DNA of 64,000 nt from Rhizobium sp. WSM4643 (GTDB taxonomy: Bacteria; Pseudomonadota; Alphaproteobacteria; Rhizobiales; Rhizobiaceae), in the NCBI RefSeq assembly GCF_025152745.1, contig NZ_CP104042.1, positions 372,001 to 436,000 of the forward strand, written 5' to 3'. The notes beneath the pieces were generated by a model. The model ran no database searches. It saw only the letters and a program-made list of their open reading frames with translations, and was not told the origin of the DNA. Both the position numbers and the translations under genes were made by a program. Below are positions 8,509 to 48,553 of this stretch, piece by piece. Each line of letters starts with the position of its first letter. The stretch's first letter is position 1.

Positions 8509-10746
8509 ATGGTGTCACAAATGCTAAGCGCCGCCATTTGGCGCACTCTGGTCCTATTGCTGACGGCGATCGGCGTCGCAATTGTCCTGCTGTCAACTCC
8601 GTCTTCCGCAGGCGATCTCCCGGCCTATCTACAGAAAGTCCAACCCAGCGAACTGTTCGATGGCGCCGAGCGATTCGGTGAACCGCTGGGCGAGCCGCCG
8701 ATCGCACCGGTCTACCGGGGCACGGAGATGGTCGGCTACGCCTATCTGACCTCGGATTTCACCAGTTCCACCGGCTACTCAGGCAAGCCGATCCATATCA
8801 CCGTCGGCATCGACGCCTCGGGCGTGGTGCGTGGCATCAAGCTTATCGACCATCATGAGCCGATTGTCTTGATCGGCATCCCGCAGGCAAAAGTGGTTGC
8901 GGCGTTGAACTCGATCATCGGGAAAGACCTTGGACGGGTAGCGGCCGGCGAAGAACGACCTCCGCAGGTCGAAATCGTCAGTGGTGCTACCGTCACCGTG
9001 CTGGTCATGGGCGACAGCGTCATCCGCTCCGCGGTCAAGCTCATCCGCAGCAACAGGTTGCACCCAGACGGCGCCGCAGACGCCAAACCTCTGGCCGATG
9101 TGAAAGCTCTGGACCTCGCGAAGACGAATGTCAGCGACTGGCAGTCCCTGTTGGGGGACGGTTCGGTCCGCAGCCTCCGGCTCTCGGTCGGAGAGGTTTC
9201 GAAAGCCTTTCAGGATGCCGGGCATGAGGACGCCGCATCCCATCCGGAAACATCAAATCCGGAGGACCGCTTCATCGATCTCTACGTCGCGCCGGTCAAC
9301 GTTCCCTCCATCGGAAAGACCCTTCTTGGGGACGCCGGCTACCAGCGTCTTCAGACCCGCCTGCAGCCGGGGCAGTCCGCAATCCTCGTAGCCGGCGACG
9401 GGGCCTACTCCTTCAAAGGATCCGGCTACGTCAGAGGAGGCATATTCGACCGCATCGAGTTGCTGCAGGACGGACAAGGATTGAGGTTTCGGGATCGCTA
9501 CCACACCCGGATCTCCGCGCTTGCAGCCGCCGACGCCCCGGATCTGAAGGAAATCGCGCTCTTCGTGGTACCACCTGAGTTCGCATTCGACGTCACGGAG
9601 CCGTGGGAACTCCAACTGCTGGCGCAGCGAAGCAGCACTGGCGCCCGCGACAAGTCGGTCATCCCGTTCAATGTCGGATATACGCTGCCTTCGCAATATT
9701 ACAACGTGACCAAAGCCGCCGCTCCGTCGCCACCGGTCGTGGTGCCGGGCGAAGCGGCGAACGAAACGGACGAACCGCCGTTGTGGATGCGCATCTGGAG
9801 CATCAACCGCGTCAACATCGGCGTCACCGCAGGCGCGCTTCTCGTTTTGACGGCAATCTTCTTTTTCCAGGACTGGCTCGTCAAGCGGCCGGCACTCTTC
9901 GCCTGGGTGAGAAACGGCTATCTGGTATTCACCCTGGTCTGGCTAGGCTGGTATGCCAACGCCCAGCTATCCGTCGTAAACGTCCTGACATTCACGAACG
10001 CGCTGATCACCAATTTCAGTTGGGAGTTCTTCCTCGCGGCGCCGTTGATCTTCATCCTCTGGGCAGCGGTCGCGGCGGGGCTGCTGTTCTGGGGGCGCGG
10101 TCCATTTTGTGGCTGGCTCTGCCCTTTCGGCGCGCTTCAGGAGTTGCTGAGCAATATAGCCAAGCGTCTCAAAGTGCCCCAGATCAAGCTGCCATGGGGT
10201 CTTCATGAGCGCCTTTGGCCAATCAAATATATGATCTTCCTCGGGCTGTTCGGATTGTCGTTCTATTCGATTTCCTACGCCGAGATGGCGGCCGAGGTCG
10301 AGCCTTTCAAGACCGCCATCATTCTGAAGTTCGTCAGGGACTGGCCTTTCGTCGTCTTCGCGGCCGCTCTGCTTTTTGCAAGCCTCTTTATCGAGCGCTT
10401 CTATTGCCGGTACCTGTGCCCGCTTGGAGCCGCCCTCGCCATACCAGGTAGAATTCGCATGTTCGAATGGCTGAAACGCTACCCGGAATGCGGCTCGCCC
10501 TGCCAGCGCTGCGCGAAGGAATGTCCTGTCCAGTCTATCCATCCCGAGGGCCAGATCAATGTCAACGAATGCATCTACTGCATGCATTGCCAGGAACTCT
10601 ACCATGACGATCACCGCTGTCCGCACATGATTCAGGTCCGGCTGAAGCGCGAGAAATTCATGGCGCTTTCGACGCCGGAGTCACGCGGCGAAAAACCACC
10701 AAGAACGGTCGTCACCCACAACGGCAAACCGATCGAACGAGCTTAA
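8509..10746 (+). CDS. nosR: NosR, flavin/iron-sulfur membrane protein for N2O reduction
   Basis: NosR is the membrane flavoprotein needed for nosZ expression and electron supply to N2O reductase. The 745-residue product has a signal segment, a periplasmic FMN-binding domain with the covalent-flavin motif SGATVT (near residue 160), membrane spans from about residue 440, the CGWLCPFGA and CRYLCPLGA motifs, and a cytoplasmic ferredoxin part ([36 protein letters not shown]). The frame is open from 8356, but the ATG at 8509 is chosen since the upstream part contains the FNR-type box. It heads the nos operon. Confidence 0.96.
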
Positions 10747-10792: not shown

Positions 10793-12712
10793 ATGTCAAC
10801 GGAAGACAATCAGCGGCGGTTCAACAGACGCCAGCTACTCGGAACGACGGCGATGGCCGCTGCCGCCGGAGCGGCAGCGGCCGGCGGCGCCCTCAACTTT
10901 TCAGGCGGGATCGCCTCTCCGGCGATGGCAGCGGAAGGGCGTCGCCAGACCTGGGAGGTCAAGCCCGGAGAACTCGACGAATATTACACGTTCTTCTCCA
11001 GCGGCCAAAGCGGGGAAGTCCGCATCGTCGGCGTCCCCTCGATGCGTGAAATGATGCGCATCCCGGTCTTCAATCGCTGCAGTGCGACGGGATGGGGCCA
11101 GACCAACGAAAGCCGGAAAGTCCTGACCGAAGGACTTCTTCCGCAGACGGTCGAATTTCTCAAGGACCAGGGCGGCGTCTACCACAACGGCGATCTGCAC
11201 CATCCGCATCCCTCGCAGACCGACGGCACCTACGATGGACGTTACCTCTATGCCAACGACAAGGCCAACACCCGCGTCTGCCGCATCCGTCTCGACGTCA
11301 TGAAATGCGACAAGATCATCGAACTCCCCAACCAGCACACCGTCCACGGTTTGCGCGTCCAAAAATACCCCAAGACCGGCTACGTATTCTGCAACGGCGA
11401 GGATGGCGTTCCGATCCCCAACGACGGAAAGATCCTGGACGATCCCAAGAGCTATCAGGCTGTTTTCACGGCAGTCGATGGAGAGACGATGAAAGTCGCC
11501 TGGCAGGTGATAGTCGATGGGAACCTGGACAACGTCGACGCCGATTATCAGGGCAAGTACTGCTATTCGACCTGCTATAATTCCGAGGGCGGCGTCAATC
11601 TCGAGCAGATGATGGCTAAAGACCAGGACTGGGTCGTGGTCTTCAACCTGAAGCGCATTGAGGAGGCGGTCAAAAGCGGCGACTACAAGGAAATCAACGG
11701 CGTCCCCGTCATCGACGGCCGTCACGGCTCGCGGTACACGCGCTACATCCCGGTCTCGAACGGCCCGCACGGCATGAACACCGCGCCCGACGGAATTCAT
11801 GCGGTCGCCGCGGGCAAGCTCTCTCCGACGGTCACCGTTTTCGACGTTCGCAAATTCGACGATCTTTTCGACGACAAGATCCAGCCGCGAGACACGGTGG
11901 TCGCAGAACCTGAACTTGGCCTCGGTCCGTTGCACACGGCCTACGACGGTCGAGGCAACGCCTACACCACCCTCTTCATCGACAGCCAGATCTGCAAGTG
12001 GAACATCGAAGACGCCAAGCGCGCCTTCGCCGGCGAGAAGGTCAATCCGATCCGTCAGAAGCTCGATGTCCACTATCAGCCGGGGCATAATCACAGCTCC
12101 ATGGGCCAGACAAAGGAGGCCGATGGCAAGTGGCTGATATCGCTGAACAAGTTTTCGAAGGACCGATACCTGAACGTCGGCCCGCTGAAGCCAGAGAGCG
12201 ACCAGCTCATCGACATCTCCGGCGACGAAATGATCCTCGTTCACGACAACCCGACCTTCGCCGAGCCGCATGACGCGACGATCGTGCATGCCTCCAAGAT
12301 CAACCCGGTCAGCCTCTGGAGCCGCGACGACCCGTTCTTTGCCGACGCCGTGGAGCAGGCGAAGAAGGACAACATCGATCTGATGACCGACTCCGAAGTG
12401 ATCCGGGATGGCAACAAGGTGCGCGTCTACATGACGTCGTCGGCGCCCGCGTATGGTCTGGAATCCTTCAACGTCAAGCAAGGCGACGAGGTCACGGTCT
12501 ACGTCACCAACATCGACGAGGTCGAGGACCTGACGCATGGATTCGCCATCGTCAACTACGGCATCAACATGGAAGTTGCGCCGCAGGCGACAGCTTCGGT
12601 CACCTTCACCGCGAGCAAGCCGGGCGTCTACTGGTACTACTGCTCCTGGTTCTGCCATGCCATGCACATGGAGATGAAGGGTCGAATGCTGGTCGAACCG
12701 AAGTCGGCATGA
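10793..12712 (+). CDS. nosZ: NosZ, nitrous oxide reductase
   Basis: NosZ reduces N2O to N2 in the periplasm with CuZ and CuA centres. The 639-residue protein has a Tat signal ([17 protein letters not shown]), which places it in clade I, histidine motifs of the CuZ beta-propeller ([33 protein letters not shown]), and the C-terminal cupredoxin CuA motif [12 protein letters not shown] with ligands C617, W619, C621, H625 and M628. GGAAAAGAAG precedes the ATG. The stop overlaps the nosD start. Confidence 0.98.
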
Positions 12713-37428: not shown

Positions 37429-37701
37429 CCGCGCGTGCCTGCGCTGCTTGATCTCGCCGTAGACGACCTCACCAAGATAGCGACGGCGATCGGCATCGCG
37501 CGTCGTTCGCGCAAGATAGCGCTTCAAAGCATCTATACCAGCACAGGTTTCTCGCTCCGCGCGACGGAATTCGCGGGAGCGGGATACCTTCCATCGGTCG
37601 GCGGCGCATTGCTTCAGGAGGCAATCGACGTGGCCGTCATCTTCGGCGAGGGGGCGTCGGCGCCCAGCTTCTAGTGCAAGTTCGACCGTTCCAGCTTCCA
37701 A
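37396..37701 (-). CDS. Hypothetical protein, about 101 aa, start uncertain
   Basis: The codons have good third-position bias and the protein is charged and helical (CAGIDALKRYLARTTRDADR, YLGEVVYGEIKQRRHARLL). There is no ATG; a TTG at 37701 overlapping the upstream gene by 31 bp is the best start. The frame is open further upstream through the previous gene in another phase. It overlaps the 3' end of nnrR by 33 bp on the opposite strand. Not recognised. Confidence 0.4.
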   Translation of the reverse strand: MEAGTVELALEAGRRRPLAEDDGHVDCLLKQCAADRWKVSRSREFRRAERETCAGIDALKRYLARTTRDADRRRYLGEVVYGEIKQRRHARLLPLAIGQSQ

Positions 37702-37958
37702 GCGGTGACGTCGGCGGCAGAGACGCTTAGTCGCGAATGAGGGGATTGTCCGTCGCTCAGGATTTTCGAAGTCGCTATTTCGCAGATCGCGCCGACGCTC
37801 TGCTGAAGTCGGGTCTCGTCGGCCCGAGGCGGGTTGGCCATCTCGCAGAGCGCGGCGCGATCGACTACGATCACACGATGGGCGCCTGCATGTTCCATCA
37901 CTACGACGCCCGCCTCGCCGGATGATTTCAGAAACGCGGTAACGAACCTCGGCAGCAT
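37671..37958 (-). CDS. Small protein resembling DUF1488
   Basis: A 95-residue protein: VVVMEHAGAHRVIVVDRAAL, ADETRLQQSVGAICEIATSK, LSVSAADVTAWK. The pattern of a residue-poor strand, a long helix with F/I-type spacing, and a final L(S/T)..D motif resembles DUF1488 proteins and the protein at 47900-48295; this is by eye. The ATG at 37958 has GGAG 7 bp upstream. It is divergent from the DUF454 gene, with a FNR-type box between. Confidence 0.6.
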   Translation of the reverse strand: MLPRFVTAFLKSSGEAGVVVMEHAGAHRVIVVDRAALCEMANPPRADETRLQQSVGAICEIATSKILSDGQSPHSRLSVSAADVTAWKLERSNLH

Positions 37959-38018
37959 CGCACTCTCCATTTCGTGCAGTTGATGGAGAGCATATTAGAT
38001 GTCCGCGCAAATCCGTCT

Positions 38019-38032: not shown

Positions 38033-38083
38033 AGAAGGGAATGCTCTCCAAGTCTATAGTCATTGAAAGTCCTGGAGATGAAG

Positions 38084-38437
38084 ATGCGTACGCTGATGAT
38101 GATGATCGCCTGGGCCTCCGTCGCTGCTGCAATCGTCGGCATTTTCCTGCCTCTGCTTCCGACGACGCCATTTCTGCTGCTGTCAGCGGGTATATTCGCC
38201 CGCACTTCGCCAAGGTTCGAGTCCTGGCTTCTGGATCATCGATGGTTCGGCGCTTCGGTAACGGCATGGCGCGAGCGCGGGGCGATCAGATCAAGGGCGA
38301 AGGCTGTGGCGGCGCTGACCATCGCGACCAGCTTCCTGCTTCTCATTTGGTTTGATCCCGGCCCCTTGGCGCTAGCAGTCGTCGCTACGATCCTGAGCGC
38401 CTGTGTCGCATTCATCATCACCCGTCCGTCGGCGTGA
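38084..38437 (+). CDS. DUF454 (YbaN-type) membrane protein
   Basis: A 117-residue membrane protein with the DUF454 signature: GIFLPLLPTTPFLLLSAGIF, ARTSPRFESWLLDHRWFG, IRSRAKAVAALTIATSFLL. Three spans are predicted. Function unknown; the family is often found near denitrification or heme/quinone genes. The ATG at 38084 has GGAG 6 bp upstream; an ATG at 38078 is also in frame. Confidence 0.85.
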   Translation: MRTLMMMIAWASVAAAIVGIFLPLLPTTPFLLLSAGIFARTSPRFESWLLDHRWFGASVTAWRERGAIRSRAKAVAALTIATSFLLLIWFDPGPLALAVVATILSACVAFIITRPSA

Positions 38438-42035: not shown

Positions 42036-42713
42036 ATGATTTCGTTCGTTGCTGCATTTGCAGTCTTCCTGCTTCTCCATTCCGTCCCCGCGATCCCAGC
42101 GGTGCGGGCTGGCGTCATTTCACAGGTAGGTAAACCAGTCTATCTGATCAGCTACTCGGTTGTATCGACAGCGGCGCTCATCTGGCTGTTTTCAGCCGCG
42201 TTAGCTCTCGACTACGTTCCGCTTTGGGATCTACAGCCTTGGCACGCGGCGGTAACCTTCGTCCTTGCACCGCTGGGAGGTTTCCTGGTGCTAGCGGGCG
42301 TGTTTAGTGAAAACCCGCTTTCGATCGCAATGAGGTCCTCGGAAAGACGCGGAGCCGTTGTGCAGGTGACGAGACACCCGGTACTCTGGGGCTTCGCCAT
42401 CTGGGCGTCCGGACATATCGTCGCGAACGGGGACCTCCGGTCGCTCCTGCTGTTCGGAGGATTCGCGCTCTTCGCTCTCGCGGCCATTCCCATGGCTGAG
42501 AAACGGGCGCGCCGACGCCTCGGCGGTCGGTGGCAGGCGTTGTCGGAAGGCACCTCGATCGTTCCACTCGCGCGCCGTCCCTCGCGATGGCGCCTCACGT
42601 TGGACCTGCCCATGCTTCTCGCCGCCGCGCTTACGGCCGGAATTTCATGCTGGCTCCTGGGAGGCGGTCATGCGACGCTCTTCGGAGCCGACCCGATCGC
42701 CGTCTTCGGCTGA
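42036..42713 (+). CDS. nnrU: NnrU family membrane protein
   Basis: NnrU is a six-span membrane protein of the isoprenylcysteine methyltransferase-like group, required for nitrite/NO reduction in Rhodobacter by an unknown means. The 225-residue product shows FVAAFAVFLLLHSVPAIPAV, VTRHPVLWGFAIWASGHIVANGD and IPMAEKRARRRLGGRW. AGGAGG lies 5 bp before the ATG. The 3' end overlaps the convergent ubiX gene by 69 bp. Confidence 0.92.
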   Translation: MISFVAAFAVFLLLHSVPAIPAVRAGVISQVGKPVYLISYSVVSTAALIWLFSAALALDYVPLWDLQPWHAAVTFVLAPLGGFLVLAGVFSENPLSIAMRSSERRGAVVQVTRHPVLWGFAIWASGHIVANGDLRSLLLFGGFALFALAAIPMAEKRARRRLGGRWQALSEGTSIVPLARRPSRWRLTLDLPMLLAAALTAGISCWLLGGGHATLFGADPIAVFG

Positions 42714-43307
42714 TCGAAAGGGTACCTCTCCCGTCCACGGCCGCGACTGATGTGGGATATGCAGGCCCAAGAGGTCGATGGCACGGCAGGCCAAGTGGTC
42801 AACGGCCTCCTGGAGAGACTGAGGCAGGTGGTAGAAGGCAGGCACCGGCGGCATGACGATGGCCCCCATCTCGGTGACGGAGACCATATTGCGAAGATGC
42901 CCGAGGTGCAGCGGCGTTTCTCGGGTCATAAGCACCAGGCGGCGGCGCTCCTTGAGCTGGACGTCGGCGGCGCGCGTGAGGAGGTTCTCCGACAAGCCCG
43001 TCGCAATTCCCGCAAGCGTCTTCATGGAACAAGGCGCGACGATCATGCCGGAGACCGGAAAGGAACCGCTTGCGATCGCCGCACCGACGTCCTTGTGGTC
43101 GTAGTATCGGTACGCCTTGAGAAGCATCCTGCCGTGAGCCTCGGGGCCGAGCTCGTGCGCCAGCGTGCGCCGTCCGCCGGCTGTTACGACGAGATGCACT
43201 CTGACACCCAAGGTGGTCAGTCGTTCCAGAACGACGACGCCAAGCGCCGCACCCGACGCGCCGCTCACTCCTACCACCACGTCGTGACGATCAACGTGCG
43301 AGTCCAC
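42645..43307 (-). CDS. ubiX: UbiX, flavin prenyltransferase
   Basis: UbiX makes prenylated FMN, the cofactor of UbiD. The 220-residue protein has VGVSGASGAALGVVVLERL (phosphate-binding), APCSMKTLAGIATGLSENLL, and the RRRLVLMTRETPLHLGHLRN motif typical of UbiX. The C-terminal 20 residues extend beyond the usual family end and lie in the nnrU overlap. It follows ubiD with a 17-bp overlap. Confidence 0.94.
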   Translation of the reverse strand: MDSHVDRHDVVVGVSGASGAALGVVVLERLTTLGVRVHLVVTAGGRRTLAHELGPEAHGRMLLKAYRYYDHKDVGAAIASGSFPVSGMIVAPCSMKTLAGIATGLSENLLTRAADVQLKERRRLVLMTRETPLHLGHLRNMVSVTEMGAIVMPPVPAFYHLPQSLQEAVDHLACRAIDLLGLHIPHQSRPWTGEVPFRSAEDGDRVGSEERRMTASQEPA

Positions 43308-44793
43308 ATCGGATCCTTTCCCAGATTTCGCCCGCGCGTTTTGTCATCTCATCCGGCATGCGAAGTTCCCGTCCCCATTCCCGCTCTGTCTCAACGCCGA
43401 TCTTGTTGGTGGCATCCAGTCCCATCTTCGTGCCCAGTCCAGCCTTTGGAGACGCAAAGTCGAGGTAGTCGATTGGTGTGTTTTCAAGCACGACGAGATC
43501 GCGCGCCGCATCGAAACGCGTGGAAATCGCCCAGACCACGTCCTCCCAGCGACGCACCGACACATCGGCGTCGACGACGATGATGAGCTTCGTGTAGTTG
43601 AACTGGGGGAGCATCGACCACAGCCCCATCATTACGCGACGGGCCTGACCGGGGTATCGCTTGTCGATCGCGACGACTGCCGTGCGGTAAGAACAGGCTT
43701 CAGGAGGAAGCCAAAGGTCCCTGATTTCGGGAAAATGGCGTTTCGCCATCGGCACGAACAGCTCGGTCATCGCCTCTCCGAGGACCGAAGGCTCGTCCGG
43801 CGGCCGGCCGGTATAGGTCGTAAGGTAGACAGGCGATCGTCTGGTGGTGAGCGCGGACAAGTTCACCACGGGAAAAGATTCGACCGAGTTGTAATAGCCC
43901 GTATGGTCACCATAGGGTCCTTCCTGGGCAGTCTCGTCCTTCGATACGTAGCCCTCGAGGATGATCTCCGCGTTCGAGGGCACGAACAGGGGCACCGTCC
44001 GGCCTTTGGTCACCTGCGTCCGTGTTCCCCGAAGCAGACCCGCGAAGCTCAGTTCACTCATGCCTTCAGGGAGGGGCATCACGCTAGAGAGGATCGTCGC
44101 CGGGTCGGCGCCGATCACGACCGCCACCGGCATGTCCAAGCCCTTTCGCTGCCACTCTCTGAAGTGCTTCGCGCCACCACGATGGGCGAGCCAGCGGACG
44201 ATCAGCGAGTTCCTGGCACGCACCTGCATTCGATAGATTCCGACGTTGACATCGTCTGGGTCGTCCGGACTGCATGTAATGACCAGCGGCCAGGTGACGA
44301 GCGGCGCCGGTTCGCCGGGCCAGCACCATTGTATCGGCAAGCGGCCGAGGTCGACGTCGTCACCCTCGAGCACGACTTCCTGCGACGGCGCCTTGCCGCA
44401 GTACCGGGGACGCATCGCCGCGGCGGCCTTCAACAGAGACACCTTGCTCCACGCGTCGGCCAGCGACTTCGGCGGCCGTGGGCGCTGCAACTCCGCAAGT
44501 TCCTCGGCAAGATGCGAAATTCCGCCTGGTCCAAGACCGAAGCCCAGTTCGATGCGCTCCCTCGTGCCGAATAGGTTCGCGATCACGTTGATCGGACAGG
44601 TCCGACCGTCCGCCCTCACGGCACGCGTGAAGCGGAGGGCGGGACCGCCCTCGTGCAGCACCTGTTGATGCAGGGCGGTTATCTCATGAACCAGTGATAC
44701 CGGTTCGTCCACGGACACGAGCAGACTGCGCCTCTCGAGGTCGTCGAGAAAGCTCTGCAGGTCCGAATGTCTTTTGGTGATGCGATCTAGCAT
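43291..44793 (-). CDS. ubiD: UbiD-family prenyl-FMN decarboxylase
   Basis: UbiD removes the carboxyl group of 4-hydroxy-3-polyprenylbenzoate in ubiquinone synthesis. The 500-residue protein has the prFMN/Mn2+ site blocks NVGIYRMQVRARNSLIVRW, EIILEGYV, EGPYGDHTGYYN (catalytic E/D/E region) and a C-terminal DATNKIGVETEREW. The ATG at 44793 (MLDRITK) is chosen; the frame is open to 44841. Divergent from ubiT with an FNR-type box between. A chromosomal ubiD may exist elsewhere, making this a denitrification-specific copy. Confidence 0.93.
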   Translation of the reverse strand: MLDRITKRHSDLQSFLDDLERRSLLVSVDEPVSLVHEITALHQQVLHEGGPALRFTRAVRADGRTCPINVIANLFGTRERIELGFGLGPGGISHLAEELAELQRPRPPKSLADAWSKVSLLKAAAAMRPRYCGKAPSQEVVLEGDDVDLGRLPIQWCWPGEPAPLVTWPLVITCSPDDPDDVNVGIYRMQVRARNSLIVRWLAHRGGAKHFREWQRKGLDMPVAVVIGADPATILSSVMPLPEGMSELSFAGLLRGTRTQVTKGRTVPLFVPSNAEIILEGYVSKDETAQEGPYGDHTGYYNSVESFPVVNLSALTTRRSPVYLTTYTGRPPDEPSVLGEAMTELFVPMAKRHFPEIRDLWLPPEACSYRTAVVAIDKRYPGQARRVMMGLWSMLPQFNYTKLIIVVDADVSVRRWEDVVWAISTRFDAARDLVVLENTPIDYLDFASPKAGLGTKMGLDATNKIGVETEREWGRELRMPDEMTKRAGEIWERIRCGLAR

Positions 44794-44827
44794 TGAATTG
44801 CAATCGACCAACAAACCTCTTCTGTCT

Positions 44828-44841
44828 TTGTCGAAGATCAA
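44828..44841. promoter_or_regulatory. FNR/FixK-type box between ubiD and ubiT
   Basis: TTGTC-GAAG-ATCAA (reverse TTGAT-CTTC-GACAA), with a perfect half toward ubiT. The centre is 59 bp from the ubiT ATG and 41 bp from the ubiD ATG, so it could control both arms. Confidence 0.65.
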
Positions 44842-44893
44842 ACAGGATCACCTCGGGAAAAACTAGGATGCCTCATTCATTCGAGAGGCTCCA

Positions 44894-45400
44894 ATGCTCG
44901 TCCCACCCCGCCTGATGGCGACCGCACACATGGTGCCGTTGCCGATTGCCGCCCGCGTCGCCGACTTGCTTCTCCAGCAGGTTCTAAAAATCCACCCAAA
45001 GCTGTTCGACCGTCTGGGAGACCACGACCGCACTCGGTTCGCCTTCATCCCCTCCGACTTTTCATTCGCCTTTTCGATCCGCCCCGCCGAACGAACGCTG
45101 AGAACATTCCGAAATGGCAGCCCAATCGCTGCGGATGCCACGATAACGGGTCCTCTGGTTCTCATGCTTGCACTGGCCGAAGGGAGGGTCGACGGCGACG
45201 CCGTCTTCTTCGCGAGAAGGCTCCTGGTGTCCGGGGACATGGAGGCGGTGCTCGCCCTGCGAAATGCACTCGACGACAACGAAATCGATCTGGTGAAGAC
45301 CGCTGCCCGGTTCGCTGGGCCGATGGCCCGATCGGTGACCCGCGCCTTCGAGATAATCAGAACCGAAGCACTCAAGCGACAGGGGCTGTCATGGAACTAA
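44894..45400 (+). CDS. ubiT: UbiT, SCP2-domain protein of anaerobic ubiquinone synthesis
   Basis: UbiT is the lipid-binding accessory factor of O2-independent ubiquinone synthesis. The 168-residue protein has a SCP2-like domain (FIPSDFSFAFSIRPAERTLR, ADATITGPLVLMLALAEGRV, VFFARRLLVSGDMEAVLALR, the last pattern being typical of UbiT). GAGAGG lies before the ATG. The 3' end overlaps ubiU by 10 bp. Confidence 0.9.
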   Translation: MLVPPRLMATAHMVPLPIAARVADLLLQQVLKIHPKLFDRLGDHDRTRFAFIPSDFSFAFSIRPAERTLRTFRNGSPIAADATITGPLVLMLALAEGRVDGDAVFFARRLLVSGDMEAVLALRNALDDNEIDLVKTAARFAGPMARSVTRAFEIIRTEALKRQGLSWN

Positions 45401-46368
45401 TCTGCCCTGCCGGAACCCCGGCATCTTTTCGCGAGGCGGTCGACGCTGGCGCCGATGCCGTCTATTGCGGGTTTCGGGACGAGACGAACGCCCGCAATTT
45501 TCCAGGCCTGAACTTCGACCGGGTGGAGCTCCAAGAGGCCGTCGCCTATGCACACGCGCGGCACGTGAAGACGTTCGTCGCGCTTAACACCTTCATGACA
45601 GCAGGCAAAGAAGAGCTGTGGTATCGAAGAGCGAGGGACGCGACGGAGTCGGGCGCCGACGCGCTGATCGTCGCTGACTTCGGACTGATGGCCCACGTGG
45701 CCGAACAACATCCAACCCAGCGCCTGCACATATCGGTCCAGGCTTCGGCTTCCAATGCCGACGCCCTGTCCTATCTGGTCGATAATTTCGGAGCAGCACG
45801 CGTCGTGCTCCCGCGGACCCTGACTATCCAGGACATCGCACGGCTGGCCCGGCGCGTCGCCTGCGAACTGGAGGTCTTCGTGTTCGGCGGCCTTTGCGTA
45901 ATGGCGGAAGGCCGGTGCTCGCTTTCTTCCTACGCGACAGGCAAGTCCCCGAACATGAACGGCGTATGCTCGCCGGCGAGCCACGTCCGATACCACCAGT
46001 CCGGAACGGACATGGTGTCCGATCTGGGCGGTTTCACGATCAATCGTTTTTCAGCAAACGAACCGGCGGGTTATCCAACGCTGTGCAAGGGACGCTTCGA
46101 AATCGGCGACAGCAAGGGCTACGCCTTCGAAGATCCGGTTTCGCTCGACGTCATGGATCAGCTCGACGAACTCCGCGCAGCGGGAGTGAAGGCTCTCAAG
46201 ATAGAGGGCCGCCAGCGTGGCAAGGCTTACATTTCGGAAGTCGTCTCCACCCTTCGCAGAGCGCTCGATGCGGCGCCCCATGAGCGCGCGCCCCTGATGG
46301 CGCGCCTCAGGTCGCTGAGCGAAGGACAGCAGACCACGCATGGCGCATATGAAAAGCGGTGGAGATAG
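45391..46368 (+). CDS. ubiU: UbiU, U32-type hydroxylase subunit for anaerobic ubiquinone synthesis
   Basis: UbiU and UbiV form a complex with [4Fe-4S] clusters that hydroxylates ubiquinone precursors without O2. The 325-residue protein belongs to peptidase family U32. Cysteines C169, C176, C193 and C232 (GGLCVMAEGRCSLSSYATG, NGVCSPASHVRY, TLCKGRFEIGD) fall at the cluster ligand positions reported for E. coli UbiU. It overlaps ubiT by 10 bp and is 2 bp from ubiV. Confidence 0.95.
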   Translation: MELICPAGTPASFREAVDAGADAVYCGFRDETNARNFPGLNFDRVELQEAVAYAHARHVKTFVALNTFMTAGKEELWYRRARDATESGADALIVADFGLMAHVAEQHPTQRLHISVQASASNADALSYLVDNFGAARVVLPRTLTIQDIARLARRVACELEVFVFGGLCVMAEGRCSLSSYATGKSPNMNGVCSPASHVRYHQSGTDMVSDLGGFTINRFSANEPAGYPTLCKGRFEIGDSKGYAFEDPVSLDVMDQLDELRAAGVKALKIEGRQRGKAYISEVVSTLRRALDAAPHERAPLMARLRSLSEGQQTTHGAYEKRWR

Positions 46369-46370
46369 CG

Positions 46371-47297
46371 ATGACGCCGCTGAAACTGACCTTGGGACCG
46401 CTCCTCTACCTGTGGCCGACCGAGCGCTGGCGAGACTTCTATTTCGAGATTGCGGACCAATCTCCCGTCGACGTCGTCGTTCTCGGCGAAACAGTCTGCT
46501 CCAAGCGGCTTCATTTCATGGAAGGCGAGTTTGCGGCGGTGGTCGAGCGGCTCGAAGCCGCGGGCAAGCAGGTGCGGCTTTCGACCCTGGCGCTAGTCAC
46601 CATCGATCGAGAGGTAAAGTACCAGCGAGCCTTTGCGAACGCCGACACGCATCTTGTCGAAGCGAACGACCTCTCGGCTCTCCATTTGTTGAAGGGCCGG
46701 ACGCATGCCGTAGGGCCCTTCGTGAACGTATACAATGGCGCGACGGCGAGGATTCTTGCGAGAAACGGCGCTACCAGCGTCTGCCTTCCGCCGGAGCTTC
46801 CGGCGGCGTCGATTGCCGAGATCGCGGGATCCTGCCCAGACGTCGCCTTCGAACTATTCGCTTTCGGCCGGGTGCCGCTCGCGATTTCGGCACGCTGCGC
46901 GCACGCTCGATCAAAGGGAAGGACTAAGGACAACTGTCAGTTCGTCTGCCAGGAGGATCCCGACGGCCTTCCCGTCAACACCCTCTCCGGGCAGTCCTTT
47001 CTCGCGCTGAACGGGGTGCAGACGGTCTCCCATTCCTGTCAGGCTCTGTTTGAAGAACCGGCCGAAACCCGATCTCTGGGCGTGGCATCGCTCCGACTCT
47101 CACCACAGGCATGCGACATGACCGCCGTGTCGCGGCTGTTCAGAGCTCTGGCGGACGGTGCAATTTCGTCCCTCGAAGCAAGGGCTCGATTGCTGCAAGC
47201 CTATCCAGGCGCAGCGCTTTCCAATGGCTTTCACCACGGATTGGCCGGCGCCGAATGGGTCGCTCGGCTCCGAAACTCACAGGGACCGGACCGATGA
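46371..47297 (+). CDS. ubiV: UbiV, U32-type partner of UbiU
   Basis: Second subunit of the UbiUV complex. The 308-residue protein has GPLLYLWPTERWRDFYFEIA, a cysteine in GETVCSKR (C43), and a C-x12-C-x3-C cluster (RCAHARSKGRTKDNCQFVC), which matches the UbiV ligand pattern. GGAGA lies 5 bp before the ATG. The stop overlaps the next gene by ATGA. Confidence 0.94.
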   Translation: MTPLKLTLGPLLYLWPTERWRDFYFEIADQSPVDVVVLGETVCSKRLHFMEGEFAAVVERLEAAGKQVRLSTLALVTIDREVKYQRAFANADTHLVEANDLSALHLLKGRTHAVGPFVNVYNGATARILARNGATSVCLPPELPAASIAEIAGSCPDVAFELFAFGRVPLAISARCAHARSKGRTKDNCQFVCQEDPDGLPVNTLSGQSFLALNGVQTVSHSCQALFEEPAETRSLGVASLRLSPQACDMTAVSRLFRALADGAISSLEARARLLQAYPGAALSNGFHHGLAGAEWVARLRNSQGPDR

Positions 47298-47716
47298 CGA
47301 GACGAGACGAGATGCCTGGCGGCTCCGCAGATCGAAGAGCGCTCCTTGCTCTGCGGCAGATCAAGGCATTCGCAAAAAACCAGGATTTCGATTGTGGGTG
47401 CGCGGCTGTCGTCGGGGAAGTTCTGGTGCATCTCGTGCCCCGGCAGCGGGCAGCGGTCGCTCAAGAACTATTCATCGCCGCCATCCGTCAGCGGGGCAAG
47501 TTGGAGACGCTGCTCGAGCTCCTTAGGGAGCTGGATCAGTTCGGCCCGGCGACCGACATATCGGAGATCGGCGAAGCCGCAATGATCTTCGAAGACATCG
47601 GACAGCAAGCGCGTCTCGGATCGCAACTCCTTAGAGCGTTCGTGTTCAACCGCGAAGACGTCCGAGGTTCAGGTTGCGCGCCCGAGCCCTCGGAAACGGC
47701 GGGACCTCTGCCATGA
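47294..47716 (+). CDS. Hypothetical protein coupled to ubiV, 140 aa
   Basis: Unrecognised. It is 140 residues with a helical middle part (AAVVGEVLVHLVPRQRAAVA, LETLLELLRELDQFGP) and one cysteine pair (DFDCGCAAV). The ATG overlaps the ubiV stop (ATGA), and its own stop overlaps the next start, so it is probably translated with the ubiquinone genes. No signal peptide. Confidence 0.6.
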   Translation: MTRRDEMPGGSADRRALLALRQIKAFAKNQDFDCGCAAVVGEVLVHLVPRQRAAVAQELFIAAIRQRGKLETLLELLRELDQFGPATDISEIGEAAMIFEDIGQQARLGSQLLRAFVFNREDVRGSGCAPEPSETAGPLP

Positions 47717-47907
47717 TCGATCGCAGCCTCCAGAGGCACGTGGACGTGTTGGAATTCCTAGGCACAATCGGCGCGGCCGGCGGAGAGGTGCAAGCCACTC
47801 TTGAAGCGTACCTGTACGACACAAGCCCTTTCCAGACATTCGCACATCGTGCCGGTTCAGTCGAAGACGGCGACATTATCAAGAGGATCGGCAACGACAA
47901 TGGATGA
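47713..47907 (+). CDS. Hypothetical small protein, 64 aa
   Basis: Unrecognised 64-residue protein (LQRHVDVLEFLGTIGAAGGE). The ATG at 47713 overlaps the upstream stop by ATGA; its 3' end overlaps the next gene by 8 bp. Tight packing supports a real gene, but the sequence itself gives no function. Confidence 0.5.
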   Translation: MIDRSLQRHVDVLEFLGTIGAAGGEVQATLEAYLYDTSPFQTFAHRAGSVEDGDIIKRIGNDNG

Positions 47908-48295
47908 GGCGCCGTGCGCAGCACAGGAAATCAACTTCGACGAAAAAAACATGAGAGGGTCATTTCTTCTTCGGGCGGACGACGTGCAGTGTTTGGTCAC
48001 GGTCACGCGCCGGGGAATCCTCAATGCGGCCTCGCCCCCTCGCGCCTCCGCCGCCCATTTCGCCGAATGCCTCGAGACGTTCCGCGCCGTTGCGCTGGAG
48101 AAGCTCTCGGAGCGCGGACGCCGCGAGACCCTTGAACTGACGGCCGAAGACCTCAGGCGGTGGCGGAGACGTCACACGCCTTCGTTAGCTGGACGGTATT
48201 CCGCGAAGCCCCACCGTGCGGCGTCAGTCGTGTTCCTCGACGAATATCGCCAACAACATCGCGCGAGATCGATCTACCACCGCGATTCTTACTGA
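47900..48295 (+). CDS. Small protein resembling DUF1488, 131 aa
   Basis: The middle part (FLLRADDVQCLVTVTRRGIL, ASAAHFAECLETFRAVALEK, LELTAEDLRRWRR) resembles DUF1488 proteins and the protein at 37671-37958. Last gene of the ubiTUV operon by position. The C-terminus is basic. Family assignment is by eye and tentative. Confidence 0.55.
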   Translation: MDEAPCAAQEINFDEKNMRGSFLLRADDVQCLVTVTRRGILNAASPPRASAAHFAECLETFRAVALEKLSERGRRETLELTAEDLRRWRRRHTPSLAGRYSAKPHRAASVVFLDEYRQQHRARSIYHRDSY

Positions 48296-48553
48296 TCGAA
48301 CGGCAAGGCTGGTGACCCACGGGCAACGCGACGATCAACGCGGATGCTCACTTCTTGGTCGGCGCCGCGATCTTGTCGGCCCGACCTCGATAGTCGTTTC
48401 AATCGCACTTCGCGGTTCGGTCGCCGATCACACGCCGTACGCTCAGGGCCGTGGCACTTGTGAAACTGCGAAGCGAAGCAACGAACATCGCGAGAATTGC
48501 GGTCAAAACGCTGACCGGGAAACCGAACCTCTGCTTCATGCACGCTGGACAGA

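Follow-up and report, generated by a model that had tools for sequence, protein, structure and literature searches.

A three-gene tail behind ubiTUV on a Rhizobium denitrification island, with OrfA and OrfC relatives beside nirK genes

We analyzed 64,000 nucleotides of Rhizobium sp. WSM4643 (contig NZ_CP104042.1, positions 372,001 to 436,000), here called the window, and in it three small genes, orfA, orfB and orfC, that follow ubiT, ubiU and ubiV, the genes for oxygen (O2)-independent ubiquinone synthesis. All three are genuine protein-coding genes in an arrangement suited to translational coupling with ubiV, and the coupling of this tail to ubiTUV is real and selected. On balance, and with slightly better than even confidence, we favor the reading that they encode accessory proteins of the denitrification or low-oxygen programme, which are coupled to ubiTUV here, and not factors of ubiquinone chemistry as such. 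This is because relatives of OrfA and orfC lie near nirK, nirV, nnrS, hemN and nnrR, which points to this programme as the common factor. The names nirV and nnrR are assigned here to a formylglycine-generating-enzyme gene and a Crp/Fnr regulator, respectively. The initial annotation had put the three genes forward as candidate factors of O2-independent quinone synthesis or of its protection. Of this proposal, the conservation of orfA and orfC by ubiUV and the selection on them are borne out, but related genes also occur by nirK, nirV and nnrS, and by hemN without ubiV.

A conserved gene tail behind ubiV

The overlaps of 4, 4 and 8 bp noted in the initial annotation were verified. ubiV and orfA share 4 bp (ATGA at 47294), orfA and orfB share 4 bp (ATGA at 47713), and orfB and orfC share 8 bp (47900-47907). 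Among 23 orfA-bearing loci of the genus that were measured, 20 have the 4-bp ubiV/orfA overlap; the script used chose the start codon nearest the tested overlap and is biased towards 4. The median ratio of nonsynonymous to synonymous substitution rates (dN/dS) is 0.13 for orfA, 0.21 for orfC and 0.47 for orfB, compared with 0.15, 0.06 and 0.15 for ubiT, ubiU and ubiV. Since dN/dS is well below 1 for orfA and orfC, and the overlap recurs, a conserved gene tail is a better explanation than chance. Purifying selection had been expected for all three genes; it holds for orfA and orfC, while orfB is weakly constrained. Conservation beside ubiUV elsewhere likewise applies to orfA and orfC, and orfB was seen solely in Rhizobium among the loci searched. 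Outside Rhizobium, the order and family loci yielded no relatives of orfB or orfC. The three proteins have no Pfam or NCBIfam match above cut-off. Over positions 44800-48400, the window matches a 548,849-base plasmid of Rhizobium sp. SRDI969 at 99.9% identity. The orfA start used here is one of several options: the annotation of that plasmid, an incomplete gene table, starts orfA 18 bp later and has no gene at orfB.

The composition of the tail varies among the genus ubiV loci, which were read as 14-16 kb stretches. orfC relatives are present in all 26 and orfB in 20. A TatA-like gene lies close behind in 14 of the 26 and farther away in 4 more (PF02416 in three examples); none was found behind ubiV in the window. 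It precedes an orfC relative in many Rhizobium and stands behind orfB in five loci (L132, L134, L135, L137, L140). In another locus (L143), nirK-nirV-nnrR lies between ubiV and orfA-orfB-orfC, and a further one (L200) has the same 4.2-kb gap.

Distribution of OrfA with ubiV and with denitrification genes

A search of 148 genomes of the genus found ubiV in 26, the OrfA family in 25 and both in 24 (Fisher P ~3e-24; here and below, Fisher tests on co-occurrence ignore kinship). By match coordinates, the distance from ubiV to the OrfA behind it is at most 200 bp in 23 of these 24 genomes and more than 4 kb in one (G510). Two genomes (G419, G436) have ubiV without OrfA; in them, a shorter relative of orfC comes immediately after ubiV. 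Only G500 has OrfA without ubiV, and there a ubiU remnant precedes orfA-orfB. Its eroded operon copies comprise this remnant with orfA-orfB (L183, G500:C2) and pieces of OrfA and orfB near ubiX and nnrU matches (L208, G500:C4). Among 14 named loci found via OrfA (nine from Rhizobium and five from 'Rhizobiales bacterium'), ubiV immediately precedes orfA in 13.

The wider OrfA family comprises 87 proteins at E 0.001 among 8000 candidates scored. In further genera and families too, ubiV is followed by an OrfA relative at a distance of at most 0.5 kb (G105, G276, G243, G256, G021, G066). Across the order sample, this placement was seen in 6 of the 76 ubiV genomes (G000, G284, G105, G276, G243, G256). 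The order scan first scored at most 15 candidates per genome, and a direct profile search of 67 ubiV loci agreed with it.

These data bear on the main rival reading, in which OrfA, with OrfB and OrfC, is dedicated to O2-independent quinone synthesis as a UbiU-UbiV partner, cluster carrier or scaffold where one is needed. It is the main rival because inside Rhizobium orfA and ubiV are almost always paired. The 4-bp overlap with ubiV also occurs in distant relatives (L080, L084, L095, L049), the eroded operon of G500 keeps orfA and orfB behind its ubiU remnant, and dN/dS of orfA is similar to that of ubiT and ubiV. However, OrfA is missing from the place close behind ubiV in 70 of the order's 76 ubiV genomes, so the O2-independent pathway does not generally need OrfA. 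Moreover, OrfA relatives accompany nirK, nirV and nnrS in genomes lacking ubiV, and the orfC family is common without ubiV. We therefore consider this rival rather unlikely.

Other data favor a denitrification or low-oxygen programme. In an order sample of about 295 genomes, OrfA occurs in 15, of which 12 have ubiV (Fisher P 1e-5) and 12 have nirK above cut-off (P 3e-7). OrfA was found in 10 of 27 genomes with both ubiV and nirK, in 2 of 49 with ubiV alone, in 2 of 31 with nirK alone and in 1 of 188 with neither, the last being a partial match. Ten OrfA relatives (L044-L048, L108, L146-L149) share the strand of nirK or nirV and follow it at a distance of at most 0.7 kb. In five of these ten loci, whose neighbours were checked by Pfam, nnrS follows OrfA within 80 bp, and six of the ten are in genomes without a ubiV match. 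In a tree built from 46 OrfA rows, the ubiV label needs 5 changes (4 forced by starred branches) and the nirK/nnrS label 4 (2 forced); none of 500 shuffles had as few label changes. Since the two settings interchange several times on the tree, OrfA-family genes probably became linked repeatedly to each of the two gene sets.

Two further explanations can be weighed here. The tail genes could be passengers, that is, unrelated small genes read through from the ubi promoter whose linkage mirrors island inheritance. The Rhizobium loci do share common descent, constraint on orfB is poor, and at one and the same place the TatA-like gene and copies of orfC are present in some loci and missing from others. 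We nevertheless think this improbable, because in several families OrfA relatives of ~25% identity stand with ubiV and with nirK/nirV, the overlaps are conserved and dN/dS of orfA is low. Alternatively, the proteins could serve regulation or assembly in denitrification proper (for example, NirK maturation or export, or nitric oxide (NO) signalling to NnrR), with no link to Fe-S clusters or quinones. The order nirK-nirV-orfA-nnrS would fit this, as would the occurrence of the TatA-like gene and orfC both behind ubiV and behind nirK-nirV-nnrR. This explanation is very improbable, since it leaves unexplained the overlapping placement directly behind ubiV in several families, and OrfA occurs in ubiV genomes without nirK above cut-off (G256, G279).

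The orfC family in genomes without ubiV

The orfC family was found in 77 of the 148 Rhizobium genomes, 51 of which lack ubiV. Among these 51, eight have an intact nirK and one a broken nirK, and an orfC copy lies 1.8-2.7 kb away in all nine; the 19 control genomes, which lack ubiV as well as orfC, have no nirK (Fisher P 0.05 for the difference). The broken gene (G425:C1:2553768-2554746) is split over two frames, and the orfC relative is 1.8 kb from it. Twelve loci were read from ubiV-less genomes. orfC is beside hemN in seven of them (five labelled by script; L212 and L216 by coordinates) and three are nirK clusters, so that 10 of the 12 have a hemN or nirK neighbour. In one of these three clusters (G484, L220), a tatA-orfC pair stands behind nirK-nirV-nnrR. 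The window has a second orfC-family gene behind nnrR on the same island (Table 1); at this place, the SRDI969 annotation gives a hypothetical gene on the opposite strand.

On its model, the predicted OrfC fold most resembles DUF1488 (PF07369; structure 2gpi), which is described as a distinct fold with a left-handed crossover. PF07369 matched none of 17 members of the OrfC family, in a search whose filters drop most matches above E 0.1.

Several observations weigh against the reading that we favor. orfA tracks ubiV almost perfectly in the genus (24 of 26 ubiV genomes). Given this pairing, and since nirK was counted in only part of the 26 genomes, a role in quinone synthesis and one in denitrification are inseparable inside Rhizobium. 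In the family sample, OrfA occurs in 13 of 101 genomes and ubiV in 5 of these 13; the other 8 lack ubiV, and the orfA-ubiV link is not significant (P 0.10). The bootstrap of the OrfA tree is not settled and long branches are flagged, and for 3 of its 46 rows (L042, L145, L151) the stretch read contained neither of the two neighbours. No nirK match at E 1e-60 was found in 42 of the 51 ubiV-less orfC genomes. Finally, in 64 aligned OrfA relatives, Cys34 is substituted in 8 and Cys36 in 3, which weakens the thiol-pair mechanism considered below.

The ubi genes, the promoter box and the surrounding island

The ubi part is an ordinary O2-independent ubiquinone module of known arrangement and is not new. 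As first described, ubiT-ubiU-ubiV diverges from ubiD-ubiX; gene order, strands and coordinates all agree (Table 1). ubiT, ubiU and ubiV stand side by side on one strand, all above their NCBIfam equivalog cut-offs. The UbiU cysteines lie at the cluster positions, as had been stated, and include C169, C176, C193 and C232, which matches the numbering of the E. coli ligands given in the available part of PMC6747719. The UbiV cysteines C43, C176, C189 and C193 fit CXnCX12CX3C. The ubiD start annotated in the SRDI969 plasmid corresponds to 44793. Among the 67 ubiV loci fetched from the order, one of which is the near-identical SRDI969 plasmid, ubiD is divergent from ubiT within 2.5 kb in 29, and 25 of these 29 have a ubiX match. 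One locus (L043) has a cysteine-rich open reading frame (ORF) immediately 5' of ubiT at 12165-12590, with a DUF6455 match below cut-off.

Table 1. Features of the ubi module, its gene tail and the second orfC-family ORF (window positions)
Feature	Position	Strand	Description	Support
orfA	47294..47716	+	140 aa; predicted helical hairpin with LDCxC-type motif (FDCGC here)	predicted local distance difference test (pLDDT) of model 79; dN/dS 0.13
orfB	47713..47907	+	64 aa; motif D-x-LE...GE-x-x-A-x-LE	dN/dS 0.47
orfC	47900..48295	+	131 aa; VTRRxxL...PPRA...TAEDxRRW family; model resembles DUF1488 fold	dN/dS 0.21
Second orfC-family ORF	37671..37970	-	behind nnrR, same island	profile match E 2.8e-14 at G000:C3:409689-409943
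FNR/FixK/NnrR-type box, imperfect	44828-44841		TTGTCGAAGATCAA; between ubiD and ubiT	one mismatch to TTGAY-N4-RTCAA
ubiX	42645..43307	-	flavin prenyltransferase	NCBIfam PRK06029 and TIGR00421 above cut-off
ubiD	43291..44841	-	ubiD-family decarboxylase	TIGR00148 above cut-off; Pfam UbiD_N, UbiD, UbiD_C
ubiT	44894..45400	+	SCP2-domain accessory factor	NF047962, 71.2 bits vs cut-off 46.9
ubiU	45391..46368	+	U32-family O2-independent hydroxylase subunit, four cluster cysteines	NF047963, 496 bits vs 440
ubiV	46371..47297	+	UbiU partner, CXnCX12CX3C	NF047965, 365 bits vs 275

The box was scored against TTGAY-N4-RTCAA, which we take to be the pattern for such sites. In all 14 named loci, a box with at most two mismatches stands at -67 from the ubiT ORF start, with one mismatch in 5; at two mismatches, random sequence yielded 0.2 boxes per 360 bp. 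Outside Rhizobium the box varies, being perfect in L055 and L050 and absent from L084, L043 and L049. In Rhizobium, the TTG and CAA ends of the box are constant and its inner part is variable, which leaves FNR/FixK and NnrR indistinguishable as regulators. The FNR-type box of the initial annotation is a one-mismatch box at a conserved offset, with FNR as one candidate regulator. Similar boxes precede hemN (29627, 29679) and nirK (34456).

The window is a denitrification island on a Rhizobium plasmid, and the host is nitrate-breathing. By the SRDI969 plasmid annotation, the ubi module is surrounded by napA, nosZ, norB-type, hemN, nnrS, nirK, nirV-type, Crp/Fnr and nnrU genes, in the order nap, nos, nitric oxide reductase, hemN, nnrS, nirK, nirV, nnrR, nnrU and then ubiX-ubiD / ubiTUV. 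The same annotation has a YbaN-family gene behind nnrR (38063-38437), and in L080 the gene after orfA (9871-10239) is of the DUF454 (YbaN-like) kind.

Possible role of OrfA

The LDCxC motif is largely kept across the 64 aligned OrfA relatives, with Cys36 in 61 and Cys34 in 56, and Phe99 and Ala96 are invariant (64 of 64). A Pfam scan of these relatives gave scattered weak matches, each in at most 4 members. All structure models are of single chains.

NnrS is known for the relief of NO stress. Because of this role, the OrfA thiol pair and the 4Fe-4S clusters of UbiU-UbiV (PMC6747719, in the part available), we tentatively suggest a protective mechanism. ubiV, orfA, orfB and orfC would be co-transcribed. 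OrfA may bind metal or NO through its N-terminal Cys-x-Cys thiol pair and could thereby keep O2- or NO-labile proteins of the same message working while nitrite and NO form. Its clients would be the 4Fe-4S pair UbiU-UbiV here and the NirK/NnrS system elsewhere, so that Fe-S and copper proteins alike would be shielded from NO. This mechanism is possible, and we would not call it likely. The data do not support a quinone-specific role (OrfA close behind ubiV in 6 of the order's 76 ubiV genomes).

A more speculative form of the proposal, which we hold to be doubtful, makes OrfA a helical Cys-x-Cys protein that serves low-oxygen metalloenzymes as a mobile helper subunit, accompanied by the DUF1488-like OrfC. 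Depending on the lineage, it would dock either on UbiU-UbiV or on the NirK/NnrS system, and the family would in this way support both O2-independent ubiquinone synthesis and nitrite respiration.

Comparison with known systems

The available parts of the papers on the ubiTUV pathway (Pelosi 2019, PMC6747719; ISME J 2024, PMC11707229) describe the same UbiT SCP2 protein, the same UbiU/UbiV cysteine pattern and a single locus, with an FNR-type site upstream where the window has a one-mismatch box. For the O2-independent steps, these parts list UbiT, UbiU and UbiV alone. They report no small genes farther downstream, whereas the window has orfA, orfB and orfC, and they leave unexplained how UbiU-UbiV function while NO and nitrite form. 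The OrfA family, probably joined repeatedly to ubiV and to nirK/nnrS, is a concrete candidate for protection of UbiU-UbiV or for an extra hydroxylase factor. In addition, orfC links DUF1488-like proteins, whose function is unknown, with low-oxygen gene sets.

In Hyphomicrobium denitrificans (Hden_0564-0568), ubiX, ubiD and ubiTUV stand together, as here, and are clustered and co-regulated with denitrification genes, according to the part of PMC12423496 available. That part describes no orfA/orfB/orfC tail, a comparison with the window made by description alone. Some nirK-nirV-nnrS clusters carry OrfA relatives between nirV and nnrS. Unlike these clusters, the one OrfA match of this genome sits behind ubiV and not at nirK.

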